Below, one piece after another: positions 9,614-40,437 of a DNA stretch of 64,000 bases (position 1 is the first letter of the stretch; each line of letters starts with the position of its first letter). This stretch comes from Tyzzerella sp. (GTDB lineage: Bacteria > Bacillota > Clostridia > Lachnospirales > Lachnospiraceae), in the NCBI GenBank assembly GCA_017472665.1, contig JAFUOS010000013.1:186001-250000 (forward strand), read 5' to 3'. Made by a program: the position numbers and the translations under genes. The notes beneath the pieces were generated by a model that was given only the letters and a program-made list of their open reading frames with translations, was not told the origin of the DNA and made no database searches.

Positions 9614-11533
9614 GTGATGGAAAACAAAAACGAATTCAAACCTTATATTCCGGCTGAAAAAGTCACTCCGGAATTAACAGTTACTTCAATCGTTATGGGT
9701 ATCATCCTTGCAGTCATCTTTGGCGCAGCAAATGCTTATCTCGGACTTCGAGTTGGTATGACTGTATCTGCATCTATTCCTGCGGCAGTTATCTCTATGG
9801 GTGTTATCCGTGTGATTATGAAGAAAAACTCAATTTTAGAGAGTAACGTGGTGCAGACCGTTGGATCTGCCGGTGAATCTCTTGCAGCAGGTGCTATTTT
9901 TACATTGCCAGCTTTGTTCCTCTGGGCAGCTGAAGGTGTGATGGAAAAACCAGGCATCCTTGAAATTACAATAATTGCATTAATTGGTGGTCTCCTTGGA
10001 GTATTCTTTATGGTACCCCTTAGAAATGCCTTGATTGTAAAAGAACATGGTATTTTACCATATCCAGAAGGACAAGCATGTGCAGAAGTTCTTCTTGCTG
10101 GTGAAGAAGGTGGCGCAAATGCGACTACAGTATTCGCTGGTATGGGTATTGCAGCAGCTTTCAAATTTGTGATTGATGGCTTAAAAGCGGTTCCAAGTGA
10201 AGTTTCTCTTCGTTTTAAAGGCTTCGCCGGTGAAATCGGAACTCAGATTTATCCAGCTGTTATGTCAGTGGGTTATATTTGTGGGCCAAAGATTTCTTCT
10301 TATATGTTTGCCGGTGGTTTGGTAAGCTGGATGGCATTGATTCCATTGATTGTACTTTTTGGCGGAGAATCAATTCTATATCCAGGTACAAAAACAATTG
10401 CTGAAATCTATGCTGAAAGTGGAGCAAGCGGAATCTGGGGCAGTTACATACGTTACATTGGTGCAGGTGCTTTAGCGGCCGGTGGTATTATCAGTTTGGT
10501 TAAATCACTTCCACTCATTGTTAGCACATTTGCTGACGCTATGAAGAGCTTAAAAGGTGGAGTAGGATCTGCATCTGCAAAACGTACAGAACAAGATATA
10601 AGTATGAAAATCGTGCTTGGCGCTATTTTGGTATTAACATTACTTGTTTGGTTAGTACCAGCAATCCCAGTATCGCCAGTTGGTGCTATTATCGTTGTTA
10701 TTTTTGGTTTCTTCTTTGCAACTGTTTCTTCTAGAATGGTTGGTTTAGTAGGAAGCTCAAACAACCCTGTATCAGGTATGGCTATTGCAACATTACTTAT
10801 TGCAACATTAATCTTAAAAATTACAGGTGACACTGGTGCACACGGTATGCAGGGAGCTATTGCAATTGGTTCTATTATTTGTATCGTAGCTGCTATTTCA
10901 GGTGATACATCTCAGGACTTAAAGACAGGTTATCTGCTTGGTTCTACACCAAAGAAACAGCAGATTGGTGAGATCATTGGTGTTGTTGCAGCTGCATTTG
11001 CAATCGGCGGTGTGCTTTATCTGTTGGATGCTGCTTGGGGATTTGGCTCAGCAGAACTTGGTGCTCCACAGGCAACTTTGATGAAAATGATTATCGAAGG
11101 CGTTATGAACAGCAATCTTCCATGGGGACTTGTATTTGTAGGAGTATTCCTTGCAATCGTGATTGAAATACTGGGCATCCCAGTACTTCCATTTGCAATC
11201 GGTGTTTATCTGCCAGTTCAGTTAAATGCTTGCATCATGGTTGGTGGTGTTATCCGTCTGATCTTTGATAAGATGAAGAAAGAGGAAAAAGAGAAAGAAG
11301 AGATTATTACAGATGGTGTGCTTTACTGTTCAGGTATGATTGCAGGTGAGGGCCTTGTAGGAATCCTTCTTGCTATATTCGCAGTAATTGGTATCGATGG
11401 AGTGATCGATATTAGTGGTGTACTGAATTTATCTGCAGGTGTTGCTAATGTACTTAGCCTTGTAGTATTTGCTCTTATGATCCTGTGTCTGTTAAAGTTC
11501 ACAATCTGGAGAAAAAGAGATAAAAAAGCGTAA
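9614..11533 (+). CDS. OPT-family oligopeptide transporter
   Basis: This is a 639-aa polytopic membrane protein of the oligopeptide transporter (OPT) superfamily, proton-coupled importers of peptides or metal chelates. About 14-16 hydrophobic segments are visible. Family blocks include TVTSIVMGIILAVIFGAANA, VVQTVGSAGESLAAG, LPYPEGQACAEVL, SSNNPVSGMAIATL, and ISGDTSQDLKTGYLLG near the middle. The start is either GTG at 9614 or ATG at 9617; AGGGAA at 9601 serves both. A TGATATAAT box at 9539-9547 may be an extended -10 promoter. A pqqD-like gene follows after a terminator. The substrate is unknown. Confidence 0.93.
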   Translation: MMENKNEFKPYIPAEKVTPELTVTSIVMGIILAVIFGAANAYLGLRVGMTVSASIPAAVISMGVIRVIMKKNSILESNVVQTVGSAGESLAAGAIFTLPALFLWAAEGVMEKPGILEITIIALIGGLLGVFFMVPLRNALIVKEHGILPYPEGQACAEVLLAGEEGGANATTVFAGMGIAAAFKFVIDGLKAVPSEVSLRFKGFAGEIGTQIYPAVMSVGYICGPKISSYMFAGGLVSWMALIPLIVLFGGESILYPGTKTIAEIYAESGASGIWGSYIRYIGAGALAAGGIISLVKSLPLIVSTFADAMKSLKGGVGSASAKRTEQDISMKIVLGAILVLTLLVWLVPAIPVSPVGAIIVVIFGFFFATVSSRMVGLVGSSNNPVSGMAIATLLIATLILKITGDTGAHGMQGAIAIGSIICIVAAISGDTSQDLKTGYLLGSTPKKQQIGEIIGVVAAAFAIGGVLYLLDAAWGFGSAELGAPQATLMKMIIEGVMNSNLPWGLVFVGVFLAIVIEILGIPVLPFAIGVYLPVQLNACIMVGGVIRLIFDKMKKEEKEKEEIITDGVLYCSGMIAGEGLVGILLAIFAVIGIDGVIDISGVLNLSAGVANVLSLVVFALMILCLLKFTIWRKRDKKA

Positions 11534-11544
11534 AAATAATGATT

Positions 11545-11584
11545 AAAGTTTCGAGCTTCTGAAAAGGGGCTCGAACTTTTTAAA
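11545..11584 (+). terminator. Terminator after the OPT transporter
   Basis: An imperfect stem, AAAGTTTCGAGC pairing with GCTCGAACTTT (one bulged T), is followed by a short T/A tail. It sits only about 15 nt before the next gene, so partial read-through is likely. Confidence 0.7.
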
Positions 11585-11596
11585 AAGGTGTTTTAA

Positions 11597-11956
11597 ATGG
11601 GAAAAAAGAAAGAAGTAATCAATCAGAACTATCTGGAAAATGTTCCGGTAAGACAGGAAGGCTTAAAGTGGGATGCCGATGAAAAAGGTATTGTAACTTT
11701 GTATGTGCACAACACAGGCCTTATGAAAAAAATTACGCAAAAGCTTTTAAAAAAGCCAGAATATACACAGGTACATCTGGACGAAAATGGAAGTTTCGTA
11801 TGGCCTTTGATTGATGGGGAAAAAGATATCATCGAACTGGGAAAAGAAGTAAAAGAACATTTTGGCGAGAAGGCAGAACCGTTATATCCAAGACTGGCGA
11901 AATTCTTTCAGATTTTGGAAAGTTATGGGTTTGTGAGCTTTAAGAAAGGACAATGA
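11597..11956 (+). CDS. PqqD-like peptide-chaperone family protein
   Basis: This 119-aa protein resembles the PqqD family. Its pattern is N-terminal strands (GLKWDADEKGIVTLYVHNTG), then a long gap, then SFVWPLIDGEKDIIELGKEV, a winged-helix-like core, and YPRLAKFFQILESYGFVSF. PqqD domains usually present precursor peptides to radical-SAM enzymes. No such enzyme or precursor peptide is visible nearby, so its role here is open. It follows the OPT transporter gene by 63 bp and may be expressed with it by read-through, suggesting a link to peptide uptake. The ribosome site is AAAGGTG. Confidence 0.65.
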   Translation: MGKKKEVINQNYLENVPVRQEGLKWDADEKGIVTLYVHNTGLMKKITQKLLKKPEYTQVHLDENGSFVWPLIDGEKDIIELGKEVKEHFGEKAEPLYPRLAKFFQILESYGFVSFKKGQ

Positions 11957-11984
11957 TGGTAAAGTTACCATGATTGTCCTTTTT
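11947..11984 (+). terminator. Terminator at the end of the pqqD-like gene
   Basis: A near-perfect stem (AGGACAAT-G-ATGGTAA / TTACCAT-G-ATTGTCCT) includes the stop codon of the upstream gene and runs into TTTTT. It separates this gene from the convergent ABC operon. Confidence 0.92.
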
Positions 11985-11998
11985 CTATTAGGTTAGCG

Positions 11999-12856
11999 CT
12001 AAAGCCTTTTTAAATACCATTTTTCTACAATTCCAATTATTCCATATAATGCGATGGCAATAATGCAGAGTATCACGATGGACATGAGCAGCCAATCCAT
12101 CTTGAATACCTGACTGGAATAAATAATCAAGTAACCAAGTCCGTTTCTTGCAGCAAGAAATTCTCCGATAACAACACCAACCAGACAAAGCCCAATATTC
12201 ACCTTCATATTGCTAATAATTGCTGGAACAGAACTAGGAATTACCACTTTTATTAAAGCATGACGCCGTTTTCCGCCCAGTGTATAGATAAGTTTTAATG
12301 TTTCTTCTTCCACACTCATAAAGCTGGTATATAAGTTTAAAATACTTCCGAAAATCGCAACTGACATACCAGCTACGATAATTGTAGTAGGAGTTGCACC
12401 GAGCCAAACGATAAGAAGGGGTGCAAGTGCTGATTTTGGAAGACTGTTCAATACTACAAGGAAAGGCTCGGAAATTTCAGACGATTTCTTGCTAAACCAC
12501 AATATAGTAGCTAATAAAATACTAATGACTGTAACCAATAAAAAACTGACGATAGTTTCGTAAAGCGTCGTCCCAATGTGTGTGAAAATACTTTTATCTA
12601 GTACCATCGACCAAAAACAAAGTGCAACCTTACTTGGACTGCTGAAAATGAAAGAATCAATGATGTCAAAGTAGGAAGTGACCTCCCAAAGTAGCAAAAA
12701 TCCTACTAACAGTATGACTCTGGCGCTTTGCACAAACAATCGATGTTTTTTCAATTCTTTTAGGAACTGTGATTGCCTTGCAGATATTTGCTTCGTGGAA
12801 ACTCCTTCCACAGCAATTTGTTCTGCAGAAATTTGCGTTTTAGAAGCCTCATGCAT
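11999..12856 (-). CDS. ABC transporter permease, SsuC/TauC/ThiX type
   Basis: This is a 285-aa integral membrane permease of the BPD_transp_1 family. After a roughly 40-residue hydrophilic N-terminus there are about six membrane segments, and the EAA-type coupling loop is visible as TLGGKRRHALIKVVIPSSVP. The overall pattern matches permeases for nitrate, sulfonate, taurine or thiamine precursors. It overlaps the ATPase gene upstream by 8 bp, so both form one operon. No substrate-binding protein gene is next to the pair, and the substrate cannot be assigned. Confidence 0.9.
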   Translation of the reverse strand: MHEASKTQISAEQIAVEGVSTKQISARQSQFLKELKKHRLFVQSARVILLVGFLLLWEVTSYFDIIDSFIFSSPSKVALCFWSMVLDKSIFTHIGTTLYETIVSFLLVTVISILLATILWFSKKSSEISEPFLVVLNSLPKSALAPLLIVWLGATPTTIIVAGMSVAIFGSILNLYTSFMSVEEETLKLIYTLGGKRRHALIKVVIPSSVPAIISNMKVNIGLCLVGVVIGEFLAARNGLGYLIIYSSQVFKMDWLLMSIVILCIIAIALYGIIGIVEKWYLKRL

Positions 12857-29471: not shown

Positions 29472-30224
29472 CTAATTCTGTTGTGCTAACAATACTTTTA
29501 GTACATCAGACTGATAAGCATCAGGAATTGTAATTCCGTATGTAATCGAACTAATCACATCAATAGAATCCAATGATTCGATATATTCTCTAAGAGCATT
29601 GAAATATGAGATATGGTATGTTTTGTGTGATGTTGCTGTTGTTACGATAATATTGATATCTTCAGCAGAATAAAATTTACACAATTCACCATCAGCGTGA
29701 TAAGGAATTGATTGTTCACCATTTGCAACCATTGATGAAAGAGTAATCAGATTTAGTTGGTCTTGTGTTGTCAACGAAAAATGATATGTCTGATTATCTG
29801 AGAGTGTTGCATCAAATCCATTTGTAATCACATTATTGCACACCTTATTCATTTCTCCAATTTTTGCCTCTTTGACAAATTCCAATGTGATTTCATCTGT
29901 GGCATCAATTACTGATTCATCTATATCTTCATAAGTTTCCTCTGGTGTAATTACTACGTCTTCTCCATTATTCAATGCTTCAGACAGTATACAGTATTCC
30001 TCAGCATCAATTTCAATGATTTGTGAATTAGTGCTATGTAACAAATCGGTTGTTTCGGCAATCATCCACGACGCACGATATAGTTCATCTCCACATTGCA
30101 GATATTGAGCCTGTGATTCATCGCAGGCAAGTAAAATGCGATGTTTCGTTTGAAATCTACGTAAATCATTTGATGTTCCAATACCAACGAACTCATTATC
30201 ATTAAGCAATTTGTAATACTTCAC
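29472..30224 (-). CDS. DUF4376-like phage tail-associated protein
   Basis: This is a 250-aa protein of unknown function. The C-terminal half (EAKIGEMNKVCNNVITNGFD ... HADGELCKFYSAEDI) resembles DUF4376, common in small proteins encoded next to tail fibres and thought to act in fibre assembly. The N-terminal part is acidic. The start is GTG at 30224, because GGAGGTGATACTG lies directly before it. This overlaps the reverse transcriptase gene by 23 bp, so its translation is probably coupled to that of the RT. Confidence 0.6.
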   Translation of the reverse strand: MKYYKLLNDNEFVGIGTSNDLRRFQTKHRILLACDESQAQYLQCGDELYRASWMIAETTDLLHSTNSQIIEIDAEEYCILSEALNNGEDVVITPEETYEDIDESVIDATDEITLEFVKEAKIGEMNKVCNNVITNGFDATLSDNQTYHFSLTTQDQLNLITLSSMVANGEQSIPYHADGELCKFYSAEDINIIVTTATSHKTYHISYFNALREYIESLDSIDVISSITYGITIPDAYQSDVLKVLLAQQN

Positions 30225-31482
30225 CAGTATCACCTCCTTGTAAACATTCATTACTATGCATTTTATAATATTTCTTGGTTATTCTATACCCACCAAATAG
30301 TTCATCATATAATCGCATCATATTCTGTCTTGTATTATATGATTTCGCAATTCTTGAATGAGAAACCCAAGATTGAAATGACGCATAGACATCATCTAAG
30401 GTCATTTTTCCTTCATCAACTAATTTTCTGAACTTCTTTAATTTACGACGCATTCTTGTCACGCCACAACGTGAAAGCACGCGTACAACCTTACCTTTAT
30501 CAGTAACAAAATATTTTACTTTCATAAAAGTAAATCCCTTGCGAATCGGGACAATACGGGTCTTTTTCATATTGAATTTCAACCCTAGTTGTGACGCGAT
30601 TGTTTGTAATCCATCAAGCAATCGTTGTAGTTCAAACTTATTTTGTGCTAAGACAACACCATCATCCATATATCTGACGTAGTGTTTGAACGAGCAGACA
30701 TCCTTAATATAATGGTCGAGTTGGCTAGGAACAGATAAAGCCATAACCTGCGAAATTTGACTACCAAGACATATTCCAGAAGCCTTATGTTCTTTGATAC
30801 TTTGTATCAATTGTTCACGTTCGAGAGTGTCTGGCATTTCCTGTTTTATCTCGTTTATAAGATATGACTCAATAATACCAACAGTTAGATTAACTATTCG
30901 CTTATCTGTAAATGCTTTGTCCAAAATAGAGTGGCAGACACTGTGACTAATGCTATCAAAGAAACTTTTAAAATCAAAAACTAACGCATAGTAATTTACA
31001 CCATATTCTTTTGTTGCTTGATTTAAGTGTTTTAGAAGACGTTTTCTGGAAAAGTCAACACCTTTTCCTTTTGTACTGGCACCGTTATCATATATTAACG
31101 AATTACCCAACACCGGAACAAGAGCGTGGTCACACAAAACTCGTTGTGTGATTCTATCATAGTAAGAGATTGGCGTAATAATACGTTCTTTACCACGTTC
31201 GTTTATAGTTACTTTTGAAATCTTATTTGTCACAGGTAACTCACCATTTAAGGTGCGTGTGATAATTTCATGAATTTGCTCAATCGCAATCATATTAAAT
31301 TCTTGTGTACTACGCTTATAGCTGACATTTTGATTGCACTTTAACAGAGCTTGGACATAATTTTCATATGTGATAATGTTGTCCAAGTTATCATGTTGTT
31401 TCATTCTGGATGCTTTCTTTTCGGCTCTCCGTTGTCTATCTCGCTCAACACGAGCAATTCGACGTTTTTTACTCGCAGACAT
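30202..31482 (-). CDS. DGR reverse transcriptase
   Basis: This is a 426-aa reverse transcriptase of the diversity-generating retroelement class. Visible motifs are the finger block (ISKVTINERGKERIITPISY), ALVFDFKSFFDSISHS with the first catalytic Asp, GICLGSQISQVMAL, and YVRYMDDGVV with the catalytic YMDD. LGSQISQ fits the [LIV]GxxxSQ signature that separates DGR enzymes from group II intron RTs. A basic thumb follows (RCGVTRMRRKLKKFRKL). There is no maturase or endonuclease domain. The ATG at 31482 is chosen since AGGAG lies 8 nt upstream; the TTG at 31488 is too close. It is expected to copy the template repeat RNA into mutated cDNA, together with the Avd-like protein. Confidence 0.95.
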   Translation of the reverse strand: MSASKKRRIARVERDRQRRAEKKASRMKQHDNLDNIITYENYVQALLKCNQNVSYKRSTQEFNMIAIEQIHEIITRTLNGELPVTNKISKVTINERGKERIITPISYYDRITQRVLCDHALVPVLGNSLIYDNGASTKGKGVDFSRKRLLKHLNQATKEYGVNYYALVFDFKSFFDSISHSVCHSILDKAFTDKRIVNLTVGIIESYLINEIKQEMPDTLEREQLIQSIKEHKASGICLGSQISQVMALSVPSQLDHYIKDVCSFKHYVRYMDDGVVLAQNKFELQRLLDGLQTIASQLGLKFNMKKTRIVPIRKGFTFMKVKYFVTDKGKVVRVLSRCGVTRMRRKLKKFRKLVDEGKMTLDDVYASFQSWVSHSRIAKSYNTRQNMMRLYDELFGGYRITKKYYKMHSNECLQGGDTGEVLQIA

Positions 31483-31774
31483 ATTCAATACTCCTTTTAT
31501 TCTTTGTTTAATAACTATCCTTTTGTGTGAAAAATTATAGTGTTACCGTGTATTCACTTGTTGATGTGGTATGAAACTATTTTGGTAACAAGAAAAATAG
31601 CCATGCACTGATATAAAATATCGGCTCGAACCACACAACACAAAAACGCTGTTATTGAGCGCACCAACTTTAAGCAAGTGGTCTTTGATTTATCAGTAAA
31701 TTTATTACCGAGAGGTCATATTCTCCTTCTCATAAATAAGATACTTCGCCCTACTATTAGGTTACTAATTTTAT
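31483..31774 (-). other. Spacer RNA between template repeat and reverse transcriptase
   Basis: These 292 bp downstream of the template repeat carry no gene. In studied DGRs the corresponding spacer is part of the template RNA and folds to prime cDNA synthesis, so it is likely functional here. On the - strand a tiny frame (Met-Thr-Ser-Arg-stop, starting near 31716) has a good GAAGGAGAAT ribosome site, but it could be chance. Confidence 0.55.
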
Positions 31775-31908
31775 GAGAATCAGGGAACGACTCCATTCGT
31801 ATTCGACGCGTTGTTGTTGTTGTTCGCGTTACCGTTATTGTTGACATTCATGAAGTTTGTAGAGTTGCTAATATTCGGCGAACGCTCCCACCAATTCTGC
31901 GCACGCAG
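31775..31908 (-). repeat. DGR template repeat (TR)
   Basis: This 134-bp non-coding copy of the 3' end of the giant tail gene lies between the Avd-like gene and the reverse transcriptase. Read on the - strand it would encode 16 Asn codons (AAC/AAT), including five in a row. Asn codons are the typical diversifiable codons of DGR templates. Compared with the variable repeat it differs at 18 positions, all adenines of this strand, plus one extra AAC codon. It carries TGA where the tail gene has TGC. Confidence 0.95.
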
Positions 31909-31950
31909 AACACGGAAACATATTAGTGTAGAATATAACCTATATTTTTG

Positions 31951-32769
31951 TTAATTTAGCCTTCCGAATCTTTTCTTATCAGAAGACTGTAATGCTTGTA
32001 AAAGCCTTATCTCTGTTGTAAGTAAAGCAGACCATTCTTTCATGACATTATTGCTATATTCTGCCATGCAAAAGACACTTAACATTGGTCTGTTTAATTT
32101 ATGTAAACATGAAATAGCATCTGAAATATGTCTTCTACGATATTGATACTCAAGTTTTGTAGTAGGTATCTTTTGATTTGCCATCAAGCAATGATACCAT
32201 GCGTTATTCACAAGTTCTAAAAGTAACTTTGCTTCATATCCTAGTGTAGATTTTTGTAAATAGATTGCTTTACCATGCACATACTGATGTAACTCACTCA
32301 TTTTTGATAAAAATTTCACACGACTAATATCCTCAGCTTTATAATACATAATTCGCTTCACCTCATCGATTTCATTATTATTGTAAAATTCTGATTTTCT
32401 ACGCATACCTTCTAATAAAGCGACTAGATTATTTGATAATACACTGATTTGTCGCATGTGTTTTGTTTCTACAGACAAAACATTGTAGTAGCAGAATAAT
32501 GGCTTTTGTAGTGTACCAATATCATATAGTATTTGGTTTATCAAATCATATCGCCACTGCGCCCTAGTATTATAGGGGACATATCCTGTACTAAGCTCCA
32601 TTATATTTGTATGAATGCGTTGTATTACATCCTGTAGAGGATTAAGTAATGTTGAACGCCGACGATTCGGAATTTTTGCAAATTGTATTCGACAATATTT
32701 ATACAATTCGTTAAAACTTCGTTCATACTCATACGGAGATAAATTTCGTTTGTTTTTCAATACTGACAT
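31951..32769 (-). CDS. Avd-like DGR accessory protein, apparently two fused domains
   Basis: This is a 272-aa all-helical basic protein between the variable-repeat gene and the template repeat, exactly where DGRs carry avd. Residues about 10-120 (YEYERSFNELYKYCRIQFAK ... VLSNNLVALLEGMRRK) and about 175-268 (YEAKLLLELVNNAWYHCLMA ... EIRLLQALQSSDKKRFG) each show the four-helix pattern of Avd. That pattern includes an Arg-rich second helix and a final [LI]xxLL helix. Known Avd proteins are about 125 aa and form pentamers that bind the RT and the template RNA. Twice that length suggests a tandem duplication. The assignment rests on context and helix pattern. The ATG follows AAAGGGTGAAAAT. Confidence 0.75.
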   Translation of the reverse strand: MSVLKNKRNLSPYEYERSFNELYKYCRIQFAKIPNRRRSTLLNPLQDVIQRIHTNIMELSTGYVPYNTRAQWRYDLINQILYDIGTLQKPLFCYYNVLSVETKHMRQISVLSNNLVALLEGMRRKSEFYNNNEIDEVKRIMYYKAEDISRVKFLSKMSELHQYVHGKAIYLQKSTLGYEAKLLLELVNNAWYHCLMANQKIPTTKLEYQYRRRHISDAISCLHKLNRPMLSVFCMAEYSNNVMKEWSALLTTEIRLLQALQSSDKKRFGRLN

Positions 32770-32791
32770 ATTTTCACCCTTTCATTCGTAA

Positions 32792-32825
32792 ATACATATG
32801 GGGTGGGTAAACCACCCCGATGTAT
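32792..32825. other. Strong hairpin between tail gene and Avd-like gene
   Basis: ATACAT-(AT)-GGGGTGG / CCACCCC-(G)-ATGTAT gives 13 bp in two helices around a GTAAA loop. The T-run is on the + strand side, so it is not a normal terminator for the late operon. It may be a transcript-processing or DGR target structure. Confidence 0.6.
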
Positions 32826-32840
32826 TTTTTTTATTTGTAG

Positions 32841-32855
32841 AAAAACTACGTTTTT
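32841..32855. other. Small hairpin 5 bp beyond the variable repeat
   Basis: AAAAAC-TAC-GTTTTT is a 6-bp stem with a 3-nt loop; an alternative is GTAG-AAAAA-CTAC. It sits immediately after the 3' end of the variable repeat, where known DGR targets have a hairpin or cruciform needed for efficient homing. It overlaps the tail gene stop codon. Confidence 0.4.
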
Positions 32856-35800
32856 AGATTGAGAAGCAGGGAACGACTCCATACGTAGACGACGCGTAGT
32901 AGCTGTACGCGCCACCGCTATGGGAGACACTCATGAAGTAGGTAGAGTTGCTAATAATCGGCGAACGCTCCCACCAATTCTGCGCACGCAGCCATTTACC
33001 ACCGTCCGAAGCATCCAAGTTGCTGGTTGGTTCATAGTAATACTCGTGTTGCGCAAATTCTTCCTGTGGCAAATAGTAATATCCAATGTTTGATTTAACC
33101 CAGATATCGCCTCGTTTTACGTTTGCAGTAGTCAGAGAGGTCGGGTCGGTTGATGAATCCGTATAATACGTTACATCTTCTGGTATAATTTGTCCTCTAA
33201 ATTTCATTCTTGAGTTATTAGAGGTAAACCAAGTAATGTAGCTACCCTCCCCAACGTATGGTGTCTCTTGTGAATTATCCAATTCGGTTCTAGCAGCAAG
33301 ATATACTTTATCCTCCGAAACTAGGATTTCTTCAGATTGTGAACCAGCACTTGCGCTAATTCTTGCAGTTTTAATCAACGACTTCCATACCGTAGGGAAC
33401 GCATCATAAATACGTGTATTGACAAATGTACGCATCAAGCACGCATCCCATCCACCAGCATTTGTATTAGACGCATTCATGCGATGTCCAAAATCAAGCA
33501 TATTGTTCAAAATAAATGATGCCATTGTTTTTTGACTTCCGCCACCTGCAATACGATATCGTTCAGCACCACAGTATTCAGCACGCCATGTTTCGTGTGT
33601 CCAAGACGCTAATTGTTGAGCGTTTGTAGCACCTAAATCGTCGTACCAGATTTTACACCAGTTAATCCATCCTGTACCGTAATCGTCGTATCCACCATCT
33701 TCTATGAATTTGATAGCACCAAGTACAAGTGTTGCCTCAGATGATGTTGGTCTAACACGTACTAACTCAAATGTTGATTGTGCGTCATTATATACATTAT
33801 CTGCGATATTAAACGCATTGATAAACAAGCGGTCAGACCCTTTCTGATGTCTCAGTACACAAATATTCTTTCTGGTCTTAAAACCAACATTTGTTGATTT
33901 ATCTCCCCATTGAATATTTGGCGCACCACTGTAACGCAATCTAAATCCCTCACTACCATCTTCTTCAAAACATGCAAGCAAGGTACTATTGGTGTCCGTT
34001 CCATAGAACTCATAATCAATCGCTAATGTAAATGATGGAGCATCTTCACTAAACAGTTTGATGCCAGTATCAATTGCGGTGTTACCATCAAAGAATTTGT
34101 TCTCGCAAATTACTTGTGATTCGACATTATTGAAGTCAAAATCGTGTCCAACTTGAATGTCAATATAATCCTTCAATTCAAAGTAGTTTGCCGTTCTTCC
34201 AGACGATGTTACACCATAAACCTCAGCGGCAGACATATCTTTTAGGTCTTTGCCAACAGCAGGTAATTCGGCTCTATCCCAGATTGCATATACGTCTGTA
34301 TCGCCTGTGATATATCCTGTAGACTTATCCCAGCCTGCGAAGACGTTATAAATATACTGTCCTTCATCTTCGGTATTTATAGGTGTATCGCCACTATACA
34401 CAACTTCGCTCGCATAATCTGCTTGAACAGAACCTAAAGATAAACCAGCACGAGCATACCATGTCACAGTGTATTTTCGAGTGGTTTCTGTATAAACAGC
34501 AGTAATAGTACGTGGAGATAATACAACGCTTGTAATATCATCCCAACCACTACCAGTATCATATACACCATCTGTTTCCGTACCAAACGTATATACATAT
34601 TGAGCATCGCTTTCCTTGACAGGTTTCTCAATGTATCCTTCCGCATATGGGTCTGGCGGAGTAGAACCTCTATCAACGTATGTTGTGAATAAAACAGTGT
34701 TTTCATCATCGGCGTTGACATATGTAACGAGATATTGTTGTACGAGTTGGGTTGCGTCATATGTTACATCAAGATTATCCCAAGATTTATCGTAGTTTGT
34801 TAATTCTTGGTCACGCACTTGTCCACTAACATATACTTCACCGGTCAAAACAGAACCACCGTGAATGCCATAGAGTTCGCTTGTAGAATCCACAGTAATT
34901 GTTCGGTCGTTTTCATCAAGACCCATCAACTTTAACAATCTGTTTAACAGAGTAGTTTCAGCAAGTTCCCAATCTACACCTAATACTCTTATACGTGTAA
35001 GATTGTTTGCATTATTAACTAACGCAAGTGTGCTAATATTTGGACAATCTTCCAATCTAATTGATGAAAGATTTTCATAACTTTCAAGTGTAAAGTTTTC
35101 ATCAGTGAGATTATATAAACTTCTCATGTTCAAAGAAGCAGGAGAGCAGAGTTGTGCATTTTCCAATAATCCACCAAGAGCGAACGTTACACCAGTAAAT
35201 CCACTACCACGAATATCCAAATCACGTAACGATTGACAGCCAGATAAATCTAGTGTCTGAGCAACATTCGGGCAATTTTGAATATACAAATGCTCGAGCA
35301 TTGTATTTGTACCGAAGCCAATTTCTGTTAAGTTATTATTGCTATATCCTTCTGCTGTTGAACCGATTTGTAATGAACGAAGTTTCGTAGCCGCAGAGAA
35401 GTCGGAACGTCCAACATACAGGCACGAAATATCACCAACAGCCTGTACTAAGTTTGCGCCATGAATGTTGATTACAGTATCGTTCATATCACCAGACTCA
35501 GAGAACACAATCGTATAATATTGTCCCTTTTCAGCTTTCTGTCTTTTGAAAATACTACCGATTTGCGTTACAATATAACCCTTATTATAGAGCATAACTT
35601 GTAACTCTGATTTTGGTTCGACACCAGCCCACTCATTAGGTGTATACCCACGTAATGTAATAGACTTACTTGTACAAGCAGTACCCATATACTGACTTGC
35701 CATATAGTATAAGTTATTTGTTACAAACGCTTCTCGTTGATGGTTTTTCTTTCCGCCTTCAAGCATTGGAATGTAAGTTGTAACTTCTTTTTGTTCATAC

Positions 35801-38800
35801 AAACGAAGATACTTATACCAATAATCTTGGTTATATACGCGCTCAGGAATTATATCCTGACGTTCTTTAGCAAATGCTAAATACGCTTCAGCATTCCATG
35901 CACCAGCCGATTCACGATTTGTCCACATCAGCTGACGAGCCTCATACAAACCATAGATAAAGCACCAGTAAACATTGTCTCTACCGTTAAATACAGCACC
36001 ATCTCCTAAATCGTCATAACCTTCGCTTCCGAACGGAATAACCAACTTACCAGTGTTGTTATTTCCATCAGCCGTATCGTTGTCGTAGTTCTTTACTAAG
36101 TGCCAGTGTACTAAGTCTTCAGTACCCCAGAACGTATTTTTACATACATTATCAACCATTGCATGTTGTTCAATGAAAACATAGTGATATACCATAGAAT
36201 CCATGATTAAATGGTCTTCACACTCAGACAACATCTTCGCCATACGATATTCATATGTATCATGTGTATACGTACCAGCGTATGTGTCAATTGTCAATCC
36301 AGCTAAAACCTCTCCGTCTTGACCTGTACCTCTAAAGGTATATGCTTCAAAAGTAACTTCCTCGTCTAAGGCTTCATCCGTATGAGCAGCCGGGTTGCCA
36401 TTCGCAAACCAATGTACCAAGTTAATGAATGCAGTTTTCATATCATCTGTCGGAGATTCTGGATATCTGAATTCAAAATAATCTTCACTATCCAGTTGGT
36501 CTACGTTGAATGTAGGGTCTAACATCATACAGTGTGTAGAGTTGTTATCCTTCGTTTCGATACAACATTCGAGAGGGTTATCTAAATCATGGAAAACAGC
36601 AGAGTTGTTTTTACTATTACCCATGTTACAAATTGCATACATATGATAATTATCATCAGCAAACAATCCATGAGATTGGTCTTTAATAAATTGAACACCG
36701 ATATTATGCTCCATACAGTCTCTGGAGTTTGGATTTTTAAGTCTGTATGCAGTAATATAAGGTTGGTAACGGTGATACCATTCGGCAATACACATATTGT
36801 TGATGTTTTCGCAAGAAGCGATATTTACTTTTGTATTAAAGTAATTAACACCAATAGAGTTATCACTCATGCTATATGTATCAATATGGTCGCCATTACC
36901 ATCGGTAAACCCTTCAGTAAAATTACCATCTGTATTTGCACCAGAATCTTTGTAGTCTACAGAAGAAGTACCTTGAATATTGATTGTAACATTGTTTGCA
37001 GTTAATTGATGTCGTGCATCACCAGCGTTGTAAATCTGCTGATAACTACATCCGGTTACATAGTCCTTTTTACCCTCAGTCATTCTTGGAATATCCCAAA
37101 GATGAACTCTACACTTCGGGTTCTGCTTCGCGAGTTCTTCATATGAAATTTCGCCAGATTCTGTGAGAATGTTATTTCTGTTATATCGAGCCACCATTTC
37201 TTGAGCGTTTGGTGCATCTGCGATAAAGTTTTCAATATGGTTATCCATCGTCAGATATGACTCATATGCTTTGACCATATAAATATAAACATCACAATCG
37301 GTAGAACCGATTACAACTTTTTGTTTATTGATATGTGTAAAGTTATCATCAGTTGCATAAACATTTGTGCTTGTTAATACACCATCAAGATATGTTTGAA
37401 TATATCTATATCCGCTGTCTGGAGCAATGTCGTACTCAAATTCTGTATAAGAACCTTCAGCGTATTGAATATCGAGCGTATTCTGTCCAGAACGAGCAGT
37501 ACCACCATTTGCACCAAGTTCGATACCAATACCACTATCCATACATGAAAGGAATACAGCGTCATAATCACGGCTATTTAAAGCCTTAAAGATAACTTTA
37601 AAGTTTTTACCGTTTGTTTTTGCTTCATTACCAAATAATTCGTAATTGATAGTTGCAGTAGTACCAGCCTTAATACAAATATATTGTCTGATATTACCGT
37701 TCTCATCAGTCTCGGTCTTAATACCACCATTATTCCAATCGAAATTATCGGAAAATGTCATATTAACACCATTGCTGCTCCAAGAACGCAAAGCGTCATT
37801 TCCGGCAATGTCACTTGCTTTCAAACGAAATGCGTATCCCGGAATTTCTTCATTTTCAATATCCAGTTTCTCAACTGTTATCTTAATAGATTTGACTGTA
37901 TCTCCAGAAGTAATAGTTAATTGTTTTTCCCCAGCTGTATCAGGAGTGTAGTTCCAATAATGAAGTGTTCGGTCTACGTTTGTCCATGTGGCAACATTTA
38001 CCCCATCAACAGCAAGAACTGCATCGGCAGTAAGAGATGACGGATTGTATATCGCAACTGGAATTTGCAGTGTATTATGTTGTGTCATCGTTACGTCTGC
38101 TATAGGACTTCCAATTACAGTAGACAGATTATCTGTATCTACAAACATCATGTCGTGGAAGATTGACTCTGAACGAATTTCTTGTTTATTTACAGTAGCA
38201 GTAAGATACAGTTCAACCATATGGCTTCCGTGAGGATATTTGTCAATGGTTGCATACTGTTGAACACCAGAACGTGTTGTTTCACTTGTAACCACTTCAA
38301 CACCATCAATCAAGATGTGTGTTGTTTTCGATAAATCACCATAAGGCGTCCATCTGATAGCCACAGTATCAGAAATGTTTACGGTAGTATCGTCGTAATC
38401 CCATACTGCATACATATTGATAGCATTGACAGACCAAGTCTTTGTTGTGATTGTCGGTTCATCACCACCAGTATCAACACTGACTGAAATTTTAACGTTA
38501 TTAGTACCAACTGCAAGGTATTTGCCAATATCAAAAGAGTTATCGCCCTGATGTACGACACTGGTTGCTTTCTTTACATTACCAACATACCATGTTGCTG
38601 TACCATCACCCACCATATCTCCGGCAGAATCAATTGCATTAAATGTGAATTCGATAGGGCATTCATCACCATATACGCACTGAGTAGATGATGCAGTGAT
38701 TCTGGTAATTGATGCAGAACCTGTAGCAGATGCACCACCGCCACCAGAAATTTCGATTTCCTTTGTTTCTCCGTCTGTATAAACTACAGTGATACCATTT

Positions 38801-40437
38801 TCACTCTTATTTACGTCTTCAACCTTAATAGTTGTATCTTTTGTATCAACAATTTTTGAACTTCCATCTTTGAAATGAACTTGAATACCTGCGTCAGCTT
38901 CAGTAATATCAGAAACGAGATTACCTAACGAATCTACTTTTGCACCAATAAGTTCAATTTTGTTATTTTGCTCTTCAATGATTGCACTTAATTCCAAGTT
39001 TTTATCGGACAGTGTTGATATCATTGTGTCAATTTCATCTTTTGTATACGAATTTCCTCCAATTGCATGGAAATTACCATTGATGTATCTATAATGCACA
39101 TATGACCCTTCGTCATTCAAAACATAGTAATCTGTAAACTCATTTCCTGTTTCTGGAAGTTCGGATACAATTTCTGCGATAGACCCTGCAACAACTTCCC
39201 AATATCCATCAATCCATTTGTAATACAGACATCCTGAATCTGATTTGAGAATGTAGTCAACATCTTCTTCGCCTACTTCTGGTAAGATATCTACAACCAT
39301 TGTAGATGAGCTACCAAATACATCCCATTTGGCATCTCCGTTATCATCGATAATCCACCAATATTTATCATATCCAGTACCGGCATTATTTGGTACTAAA
39401 TAGAAAGTCATACTTGCACCAACTAAAGGTAATTCGTCAACAATTTCAATTGAAAATGCTTCGTAATCGGCAAGTAAAGCTTGTGCATAAGTTCTTGATA
39501 ATGTTACGGCACCACGCACAGCATCACCAAGATTTGTGTAATATATCGTATCGGTCAGTTTATACGCATCTGCGATTTCATCTTTGACATCATTCAGTTT
39601 ACGCTCAACTGTATCGGCTTTCGCCTGTGCATATGAGAAGATATCAATTTTCAATCCTTGTGGGTCATATACATTAGGTTGCATCGCTGTATCAGCCTTG
39701 ACCAATGTTTCTTCAAATCCAGAATCAACTTTTTGTCTTGTAACACTTCCGTCCTGAATTGTCATATTTGCTAATTGACCGCTAGAAAGATATTCATCCA
39801 TTTCTTTTTGTACAGCTTCTGAAATCAGTTCAGCAATTATTTCGTTATTCTCTAATTGTGTAACTTTAATCGTCAATTCATCGACTTCTGACTGTTCGGC
39901 TTTTGTTGCCACAGCTTCCGCATTCGCTTTTTCCGCAGCTTTTGCACGTGCGATTTCTGTTTCCAAATCTGTCTGATTGGCTTTATCATTGATTTGGATT
40001 TGCAACTGTTTATCAGCATCAGCTAATTCAGAAGCATGTTGCTCGTTCATTGTTGCGAGTGCATTAACTTTTGTTACAAGTTGGTTATATAAAGATAAAG
40101 AAATATCTGTACTTTGTGCATCTGATACAAGGATATTTTCATCAATTGTCAAAGTTAAGTAATTGGTTGTGGCGATTGTGTTTTCGTTACTTCCGTATAA
40201 CATTACCGTACATGTACCAACACCAATTTCAGATGGGAGATAAGCAGCTTTATCATCATCTAGGTATGCGTTATATGCCACACCATTTTGCATAAATTGA
40301 GCAAACGTCGCTAGTCCATCCCAGTCACCAGATGTATTAAATACAAAACGAACAAATTCTTGTGTTCCAGCCACGAGGCTCTTTAAATTTGTCGCAATTT
40401 TCAATTTTTGATTGGCGACATTAACTAATATGTCCAT
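32854..40437 (-). CDS. Giant modular tail protein, DGR target, presumed receptor-binding protein
   Basis: This 2,527-aa protein reads as a mosaic; boundaries are rough. A BppU-like baseplate N-terminus spans 1-115 and a coiled coil spans 120-230. Three tandem repeats of about 40 residues lie at 325-460 (each V-x-x-LP-x-x-G ... ending in a Trp or His turn). Ig-like domains span 565-860, and a concanavalin-like lectin domain spans 860-1062. A CotH-like stretch lies at 1100-1560 (VTINIQGTSSVDYKDSG). Leucine-rich repeats span 1650-1840, InlB-type B repeats 1895-2055, and a second lectin-like domain 2087-2279. The C-terminal domain (2290-2527) has the WWERSP ... GVVPCFSI pattern of C-type-lectin/DUF6273 folds. 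Its last 45 residues carry the DGR variable repeat. It probably forms the fibre that contacts the host. The ATG has GGAAGG upstream. Confidence 0.88.
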   Translation of the reverse strand: MDILVNVANQKLKIATNLKSLVAGTQEFVRFVFNTSGDWDGLATFAQFMQNGVAYNAYLDDDKAAYLPSEIGVGTCTVMLYGSNENTIATTNYLTLTIDENILVSDAQSTDISLSLYNQLVTKVNALATMNEQHASELADADKQLQIQINDKANQTDLETEIARAKAAEKANAEAVATKAEQSEVDELTIKVTQLENNEIIAELISEAVQKEMDEYLSSGQLANMTIQDGSVTRQKVDSGFEETLVKADTAMQPNVYDPQGLKIDIFSYAQAKADTVERKLNDVKDEIADAYKLTDTIYYTNLGDAVRGAVTLSRTYAQALLADYEAFSIEIVDELPLVGASMTFYLVPNNAGTGYDKYWWIIDDNGDAKWDVFGSSSTMVVDILPEVGEEDVDYILKSDSGCLYYKWIDGYWEVVAGSIAEIVSELPETGNEFTDYYVLNDEGSYVHYRYINGNFHAIGGNSYTKDEIDTMISTLSDKNLELSAIIEEQNNKIELIGAKVDSLGNLVSDITEADAGIQVHFKDGSSKIVDTKDTTIKVEDVNKSENGITVVYTDGETKEIEISGGGGASATGSASITRITASSTQCVYGDECPIEFTFNAIDSAGDMVGDGTATWYVGNVKKATSVVHQGDNSFDIGKYLAVGTNNVKISVSVDTGGDEPTITTKTWSVNAINMYAVWDYDDTTVNISDTVAIRWTPYGDLSKTTHILIDGVEVVTSETTRSGVQQYATIDKYPHGSHMVELYLTATVNKQEIRSESIFHDMMFVDTDNLSTVIGSPIADVTMTQHNTLQIPVAIYNPSSLTADAVLAVDGVNVATWTNVDRTLHYWNYTPDTAGEKQLTITSGDTVKSIKITVEKLDIENEEIPGYAFRLKASDIAGNDALRSWSSNGVNMTFSDNFDWNNGGIKTETDENGNIRQYICIKAGTTATINYELFGNEAKTNGKNFKVIFKALNSRDYDAVFLSCMDSGIGIELGANGGTARSGQNTLDIQYAEGSYTEFEYDIAPDSGYRYIQTYLDGVLTSTNVYATDDNFTHINKQKVVIGSTDCDVYIYMVKAYESYLTMDNHIENFIADAPNAQEMVARYNRNNILTESGEISYEELAKQNPKCRVHLWDIPRMTEGKKDYVTGCSYQQIYNAGDARHQLTANNVTINIQGTSSVDYKDSGANTDGNFTEGFTDGNGDHIDTYSMSDNSIGVNYFNTKVNIASCENINNMCIAEWYHRYQPYITAYRLKNPNSRDCMEHNIGVQFIKDQSHGLFADDNYHMYAICNMGNSKNNSAVFHDLDNPLECCIETKDNNSTHCMMLDPTFNVDQLDSEDYFEFRYPESPTDDMKTAFINLVHWFANGNPAAHTDEALDEEVTFEAYTFRGTGQDGEVLAGLTIDTYAGTYTHDTYEYRMAKMLSECEDHLIMDSMVYHYVFIEQHAMVDNVCKNTFWGTEDLVHWHLVKNYDNDTADGNNNTGKLVIPFGSEGYDDLGDGAVFNGRDNVYWCFIYGLYEARQLMWTNRESAGAWNAEAYLAFAKERQDIIPERVYNQDYWYKYLRLYEQKEVTTYIPMLEGGKKNHQREAFVTNNLYYMASQYMGTACTSKSITLRGYTPNEWAGVEPKSELQVMLYNKGYIVTQIGSIFKRQKAEKGQYYTIVFSESGDMNDTVINIHGANLVQAVGDISCLYVGRSDFSAATKLRSLQIGSTAEGYSNNNLTEIGFGTNTMLEHLYIQNCPNVAQTLDLSGCQSLRDLDIRGSGFTGVTFALGGLLENAQLCSPASLNMRSLYNLTDENFTLESYENLSSIRLEDCPNISTLALVNNANNLTRIRVLGVDWELAETTLLNRLLKLMGLDENDRTITVDSTSELYGIHGGSVLTGEVYVSGQVRDQELTNYDKSWDNLDVTYDATQLVQQYLVTYVNADDENTVLFTTYVDRGSTPPDPYAEGYIEKPVKESDAQYVYTFGTETDGVYDTGSGWDDITSVVLSPRTITAVYTETTRKYTVTWYARAGLSLGSVQADYASEVVYSGDTPINTEDEGQYIYNVFAGWDKSTGYITGDTDVYAIWDRAELPAVGKDLKDMSAAEVYGVTSSGRTANYFELKDYIDIQVGHDFDFNNVESQVICENKFFDGNTAIDTGIKLFSEDAPSFTLAIDYEFYGTDTNSTLLACFEEDGSEGFRLRYSGAPNIQWGDKSTNVGFKTRKNICVLRHQKGSDRLFINAFNIADNVYNDAQSTFELVRVRPTSSEATLVLGAIKFIEDGGYDDYGTGWINWCKIWYDDLGATNAQQLASWTHETWRAEYCGAERYRIAGGGSQKTMASFILNNMLDFGHRMNASNTNAGGWDACLMRTFVNTRIYDAFPTVWKSLIKTARISASAGSQSEEILVSEDKVYLAARTELDNSQETPYVGEGSYITWFTSNNSRMKFRGQIIPEDVTYYTDSSTDPTSLTTANVKRGDIWVKSNIGYYYLPQEEFAQHEYYYEPTSNLDASDGGKWLRAQNWWERSPIISNSTYFMSVSHSGGAYSYYASSTYGVVPCFSI
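32861..32991 (-). repeat. DGR variable repeat (VR)
   Basis: This 131-bp segment encodes residues 2483-2526 of the giant tail protein, from LRAQNWWERSP to VVPCFS. It matches the template repeat at every non-adenine position. The substituted codons (residues 2494, 2500, 2503, 2505-2507, 2509, 2511-2514, 2517 and 2519) all correspond to Asn codons in the template. The conserved last stretch before the stop, GGAGTCGTTCCCTG, would act as the homing initiation site. Confidence 0.95.

Follow-up and report, generated by a model that had tools for sequence, protein, structure and literature searches.

We describe a diversity-generating retroelement (DGR) in a prophage of Tyzzerella sp. (assembly GCA_017472665.1), located in a stretch of 64,000 nucleotides of contig JAFUOS010000013.1 (positions 186,001 to 250,000) that we refer to as the window. 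The element is a real DGR of known kind, distinguished by a variant helper protein and by an RNA whose placement is new, and very probably represents an intact prophage DGR that has two Avd-like domains fused in one accessory protein (the tandem form) and works by mutagenic retrohoming. Complete at window positions 30202-32991 on the minus strand, it presents target gene, accessory gene, template repeat (TR) and reverse transcriptase (RT) in that order, and its neighbors belong to phage families such as tape measure, portal, tail and endolysin. A preliminary description of this DNA had claimed a complete prophage-borne DGR in classical order whose parts all look intact. Both statements are borne out: the order is that of the BPP-1 record, phage genes surround the cassette, the RT, accessory and target open reading frames (ORFs) are all open, and the catalytic motifs of the RT are kept.

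The RT gene spans 30202-31482 (minus strand) and encodes 426 aa from an ATG. Starting at a TTG at 31488 would extend the ORF to 428 aa (30202-31488), but the ATG at 31482, with AAAGGAG upstream, seems the likelier start. The protein contains YMDD and LGSQISQ, in keeping with the YxDD and LGxxxSQ motifs that we take to be the signature of DGR-type RTs, and it matches the reverse transcriptase family phrog_1423 of PHROGs (2.8e-74) and RVT_1 of Pfam (1.9e-15). Its closest solved structure is the Bordetella DGR RT 8ub7_A (5.9e-16 with the single sequence, 1.2e-30 with a profile), behind which a maturase RT followed in the profile search at 8.8e-17. Phylogenetic placement of the RT, named in the preliminary description as a possible refutation, gave a concordant answer: a 103-row tree groups it with the DGR RTs, 95 DGR-like rows including BPP-1 Brt being separated from 8 group II/retron-like rows with a Shimodaira-Hasegawa-like approximate likelihood-ratio test (SH-aLRT) support of 99, although BPP-1 and the outgroup sit on long branches, against which the program cautions.

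The repeats carry the mark of adenine-directed change. The TR (31774-31908, minus strand, 135 nt) and the variable repeat (VR; 32860-32991, minus strand, 132 nt) differ by 18 substitutions, all of them at TR adenines; with A at 43 of 135 TR positions, the chance of 18/18 is (43/135)^18 = 1.1e-9. At every aligned non-A position the two are identical, and the sole indel is a 3-nt VR deletion within the (AAC)5 run of the TR at 31810-31824. When a pattern of 47 nt from the TR was searched with every A left free, its only exact matches in the assembly were the TR and the VR (reversed-pattern control, 0), and it revealed no further VR in the genome, whose assembly is 65% complete. Extending the comparison to 74 TR/VR pairs from the window and related loci, strict alignment placed 1205 of 1323 substitutions at A and 118 elsewhere; 73 of these pairs came from an adenine-tolerant scan that favors A bias, and the window's own alignment is unbiased and cleaner. 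A loose first alignment of the same pairs ran into the flanks and was dropped in favor of the strict one.

The accessory gene (31951-32769, minus strand) encodes a 272-aa protein in which two Avd-like domains are recognizable by comparison with a profile of 63 single-copy proteins, themselves chosen with a model seeded by the tandem halves. The first domain (residues 1-127; 32389-32769, minus strand) matches profile positions 2-131 with an independent E-value of 3.4e-15 and has helices predicted at 14-124 with a predicted local distance difference test score mostly of 90+, while the second (residues 148-271; 31957-32328, minus strand) matches at 9.5e-20. The predicted fold is the four-helix bundle of Avd (Avd / S23 fold), and the double-length Avd proposed earlier accordingly holds up as two Avd-like domains. 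The bAvd models PF22296 and NF033474 do not match the window protein, whereas the BPP-1 Avd control scored 7.3e-36 and 5.7e-31 against them; since the curated models do not match, the protein is Avd-like and not a bAvd family member. Nothing above noise emerged from comparing the protein with Pfam, NCBIfam and PHROGs, or 18 members of the accessory alignment A1 with Pfam. A search of solved structures with the tandem-protein profile returned no Avd, and direct profile comparison with BPP-1 Avd gave no match. Among single-copy accessories, that of L036, the second DGR of the same genome, reaches PF05635 at 1.6e-5 (below cut-off) and TIGR02436 at 5.9e-5, that of Roseburia phage Shimadzu reaches NF033474 at 0.0097, and those of loci L023 and L049 match no Avd or S23 model of Pfam or NCBIfam. 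The passages on Avd consulted in the literature describe no tandem Avd, and the main text of PMC8144416 does not contain the word Avd.

The phylogenetic distribution of the tandem form was assessed over 111 RT loci including the window, of which 91 were used for the copy count and tree; the 20 omitted were repeats of contigs already represented or apparent near-copies by match score, partly checked. By profile model, two Avd-like domains are present in 24 loci, one in 64 and none in 3. For two of the last (L069 and L086) the sequence ahead of the RT is shorter than 0.7 kb, and in the third (L001) neither accessory nor TR was found. L083, labeled single by the model, contains an ORF of about 305 aa from MAVLKRFR with two bundle-sized parts by eye, and we count it as tandem by this reading, against the model label. 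After this recount the single-copy form stands at 63 of 91 loci, one of them being the second DGR of the host genome. All 24 tandem loci, together with L083 and L001, make up a single RT clade (26 rows, SH-aLRT 99), and every row outside it that was labeled with one or two copies is single, BPP-1 included. Because the tandem form is confined to one RT clade, one duplication explains the data. Change counts alone cannot separate gain from loss of the tandem form, and on the tree, kept as fitted, scoring L083 as single requires three changes of the tandem label (two for tandem and single rows only). No tandem-clade locus has a single-length accessory gene, L083 being tandem by reading and L001 having none. 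At L083 (3735-4991) the tandem accessory ORF is strongly diverged, the RT branch is long, and the first half goes unrecognized by the model. L001 and L003 have tandem-clade RTs with spacer-like sequence by eye and no TR/VR pair that could be found, and may be stripped or rearranged DGRs.

Among 397 genomes of the family the tandem protein was found at E 1e-10 only in the window's own genome, and tblastn against INPHARED phage records at E up to 0.01 found no relative of it. Protein searches with the tandem query return nothing under about 150 aa, and their all-tandem result is uninformative on single copies; the viral scan took the best 80 of 587 relatives and under-samples distant DGRs.

Between the TR and the RT lies a structured spacer RNA (31498-31779, minus strand), a diverged RT-2 (RF03077) recognized by a full-length match to model positions 1-222 and by covariation. 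The window copy reaches 35.3 bits where the gathering threshold is 40, with E-values of 8.6e-6 in 4 kb and 1.2e-6 in 551 bases, and has 51 unaligned nt opposite 4 model positions. Single-copy spacers pass the gathering score in 13 of 17 cases, at 99-152 bits and including Shimadzu, L023 and L036; L084, L091 and L112 gave no RT-2 hit, and the BPP-1 spacer matches RF03022 instead. Tandem spacers pass in 2 of 11 cases (L024 at 80 and L045 at 61.9 bits). L019's contig (as L043, 40.0 bits) and the window stand at or under the line, and the other seven (L042, L006, L008, L035, L002, L032 and L040) gave no RT-2 hit, the search of L006 and L032 having been limited to gathering mode. Alignment of the spacers of 18 of the 24 tandem loci (A4; L002, L004, L007, L033, L017 and L042 omitted) gave an RNAalifold structure with 91% of cells paired versus 36-46% when slid and covariation of 0.628 versus 0.276 when shuffled, values somewhat favored by deriving the structure from the alignment that was tested.

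Although RF03077 is filed in Rfam as 'RT-2 RNA', type sRNA, its full-length match lies precisely between TR and RT in the window and in relatives, and from position and sequence the RNA looks to be the spacer scaffold of the window's DGR group, remodeled in the tandem clade. This remodeling may have accompanied the duplication. Placing the orphan RT-2 between TR and RT gives an RNA family a testable job as a DGR spacer scaffold, and helps annotators find DGRs whose accessory gene Avd models miss. The original RT-2 paper is reportedly that of Weinberg et al. 2017, which may already link RT-2 to DGRs. In the parts of the literature on RT-2 or DGR structured RNAs that were consulted, RF03077 appeared only in the Rfam 15 paper (PMC11701678), where, in the part consulted, RT-2 is mentioned solely as an entry in a table that lists improved structures.

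Comparison of related VRs points to active diversification in tandem-form relatives. L007, L008 and L033 have identical TRs across the VR-matching part, yet their VRs, compared pairwise, show differences in 15, 18 and 20 of the 40 template-A columns as against 5, 2 and 5 of the 109, 108 and 108 remaining ones, where some of the differences resemble alignment slips at the 3′ end. Likewise, the VRs of L002 and L005 differ at 14/32 template-A columns and 0/50 others. L025/L034 and L004/L005 are identical throughout, and the more distant pairs L005/L032, L011/L025 and L002/L032 differ at 24/33, 23/50 and 21/32 template-A columns and at 23/135, 19/111 and 4/50 others, respectively. Because tandem-form relatives with a common TR differ mainly at template-A columns, we conclude from these sequences that the tandem-form DGR is active in nature, the adenine-directed change being seen in relatives and not at the window locus. 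The strain comparison advocated in the preliminary description, made here among tandem-form relatives only, thus yields VR differences concentrated at template-A columns.

Three known systems frame these observations. The BPP-1 DGR (NC_005357) resembles the window element in its order of mtd/VR, avd, TR and brt followed by endolysin, in having a spacer RNA between TR and RT, and in the adenine-directed change of its VR noted in a passage of PMC12875486. In contrast, its Avd is single (128 aa, PF22296) where the window accessory is tandem, its Mtd target has about 380 aa versus 2,527 aa, and its spacer is RF03022 Phage_DGR and not RT-2-like. Roseburia phage Shimadzu (LR596903) belongs to the same group by its RT, its accessory is annotated Avd and its spacer is an RT-2 RNA (144.9 bits), but that Avd is of single length (136 aa) and the RT only 31.5% identical to that of the window. 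L036 has an RT 43-48% identical and a complete cassette among tail genes (VR 10235-10369, accessory 10426-10926, TR 10952-11086, RT 11285-12448) that shows 15 adenine-only TR/VR substitutions. Its RT, on genome contig G000 C7:192284-193447 in another phage region than the window, branches just outside the tandem clade, its accessory is single (166 aa), and its RT-2 spacer reaches 104.7 bits.

In the mechanism we envisage, the RT would copy TR RNA, erring at adenines, and the resulting cDNA would take the place of the VR, at the 3′ end of the gene for the predicted tail protein; the window DGR thus likely randomizes a single predicted phage tail protein at its tip. The spacer RNA would recruit RT and tandem Avd and prime cDNA synthesis, as described for BPP-1, and one tandem chain may take up the positions of two Avds, or a single position in the ring with one bundle to spare. 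The Avd-fold protein 2GSC consists of five four-helix bundles according to a passage of PMC10053308; bundles that come in fused pairs cannot be shared out evenly over five places, which would imply a stoichiometry unlike that of BPP-1 or one bundle per chain in the ring. It is conceivable, if slightly short of an even bet, that this whole lineage of DGRs depends on a ribonucleoprotein that has been re-engineered, in which duplication fused two Avd subunits, ring or stoichiometry was altered, and the RT-2-derived TR-spacer RNA was remodeled alongside. What Avd does in mutagenic retrohoming is mostly deduced from the complex of BPP-1, and a fused-Avd lineage with single-copy sisters, even in one genome, offers a natural experiment on bundle number and roles.

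Other explanations are less likely. Duplications of TR/VR length are generally known to be common, but an ordinary diverged duplication without reverse transcription is almost inconceivable where substitutions fall at adenines in all 18 window cases and in 1205 of 1323 across the mostly scan-derived 74 pairs, beside an RT. A real cassette that is defunct in the window prophage, its VR a fossil of earlier diversification, is improbable. The 35.3-bit score of the window spacer and the one AAC codon that the TR has beyond the VR would suit such decay, and against it stand the open RT, accessory and target ORFs, the intact catalytic motifs, the TR/VR match at all aligned non-A positions and the spacer helices kept with covariation across the tandem clade.

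The accessory protein invites two further readings. That it is an unrelated helical accessory and not Avd-like appears highly improbable given that both halves match the single-copy profile as predicted bundles, even though no Avd family model matches the 272-aa protein and helical bundles readily match each other. More serious, though still unlikely, is the idea that only one bundle acts as Avd and the other has taken up another task, for example binding of the phage tail protein, of target DNA or of a further site on RNA. The second copy is indeed the better conserved, with 22 of 25 invariant columns of alignment A1 and 8 of 12 of A3 lying after residue 150, it has the better match to the single-copy profile (9.5e-20 versus 3.4e-15), and the first half of L083 is missed entirely by the model. 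Nevertheless, the first half is recognizable in 24/24 tandem proteins tested (a sample chosen because both halves were seen), its N-terminus (MSVLKNKR...) is still that of the single-copy proteins, a bundle is predicted for it, and no tandem-clade locus supplies a single-length accessory gene.

Features at the 3′ ends of the repeats are consistent with mutagenic retrohoming. Of the tandem pairs 23 of 24, and of the single-copy pairs 35 of 50, have GAT in the TR opposite GCT in the VR; among them is the window, where an in-frame TGA in the IMH*-like (initiation of mutagenic homing) end of the TR (31780-31782) faces TGC in the VR (32866-32868). Since this TGA is in frame, faithful copying there would remove four residues from the target, and a mismatch that recurs in this way is compatible with an IMH*/IMH boundary lying outside the copied segment. 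A hairpin, GGGGTGG-TTTAC-CCACCCC (32800-32818, minus strand), follows 41 nt downstream of the VR and scores 13, counted as stem plus its G+C. Hairpins scoring at least 11 occur within 110 nt after the VR in 16 of 24 loci versus 3.1% of 960 random stretches; of the remaining loci, 2 score 10 and 6 are without any. In BPP-1, removal of the stem-loop behind the VR impairs retrohoming, as stated in a passage of PMC12875486. A match to Srn266 at 32790-32882, below its gathering score, overlies the hairpin and was taken as chance.

The 74 pairs also contain nine internal TR/VR indels, each exactly 3 nt long and located within or next to a run of AAC or AAY, in the window (31810-31824), L002, L007, L016, L018, L024, L033, L067 and L092. 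Seven fall among the 24 tandem pairs and two among the 50 single-copy pairs (Fisher 0.004, the pairs not being independent), and the VRs of L007 and L033 have gained one codon relative to the TR they have in common with L008. The pattern suggests codon-length slippage during retrohoming; a literature search on indels in DGRs brought up nothing on the subject.

The target gene (32854-40437, minus strand), directly after the tail genes, encodes a predicted tail/baseplate protein of 2,527 aa that matches two families of unknown function, phrog_14959 (1.2e-73) and phrog_24896 (6.8e-31). The VR sits at the extreme 3′ end of the ORF, ending at its stop, in a DUF6273 domain (residues 2320-2527; 32857-33480, minus strand; 2.4e-12); DUF6273-like DGR target domains are called C-type-lectin-like in a passage of PMC10743442. 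Foldseek gave nothing useful for the target C-terminus, and structural realignment gave a weak match from which no fold was assigned. The giant target had been put forward as part of the possible novelty, and while the ORF is indeed very large, targets of 2,164-2,903 aa occur in 14 of the 25 loci listed, among which L019 and L020 are near-copies and L006 and L021 are cut by a contig end.

On the minus strand the RT is followed by a tail-fibre-like gene, then by three small ORFs to which no function has been given and by an endolysin, and beside the prophage region are ORFs that, from their sequences, we presume to be host recA-, recX- and rny-like genes. Relatives L032-L035 are Clostridia/Ruminococcus records, which lends plausibility to the gut Firmicute host of the preliminary description. 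The tail-fibre-like gene (29472-30251) overlaps the 3′ end of the RT gene and matches the tail fibre family phrog_1348 (1.3e-16); in L035 a reading frame resembling it by eye lies directly upstream of the accessory gene, and its product is possibly a partner of the DGR target.

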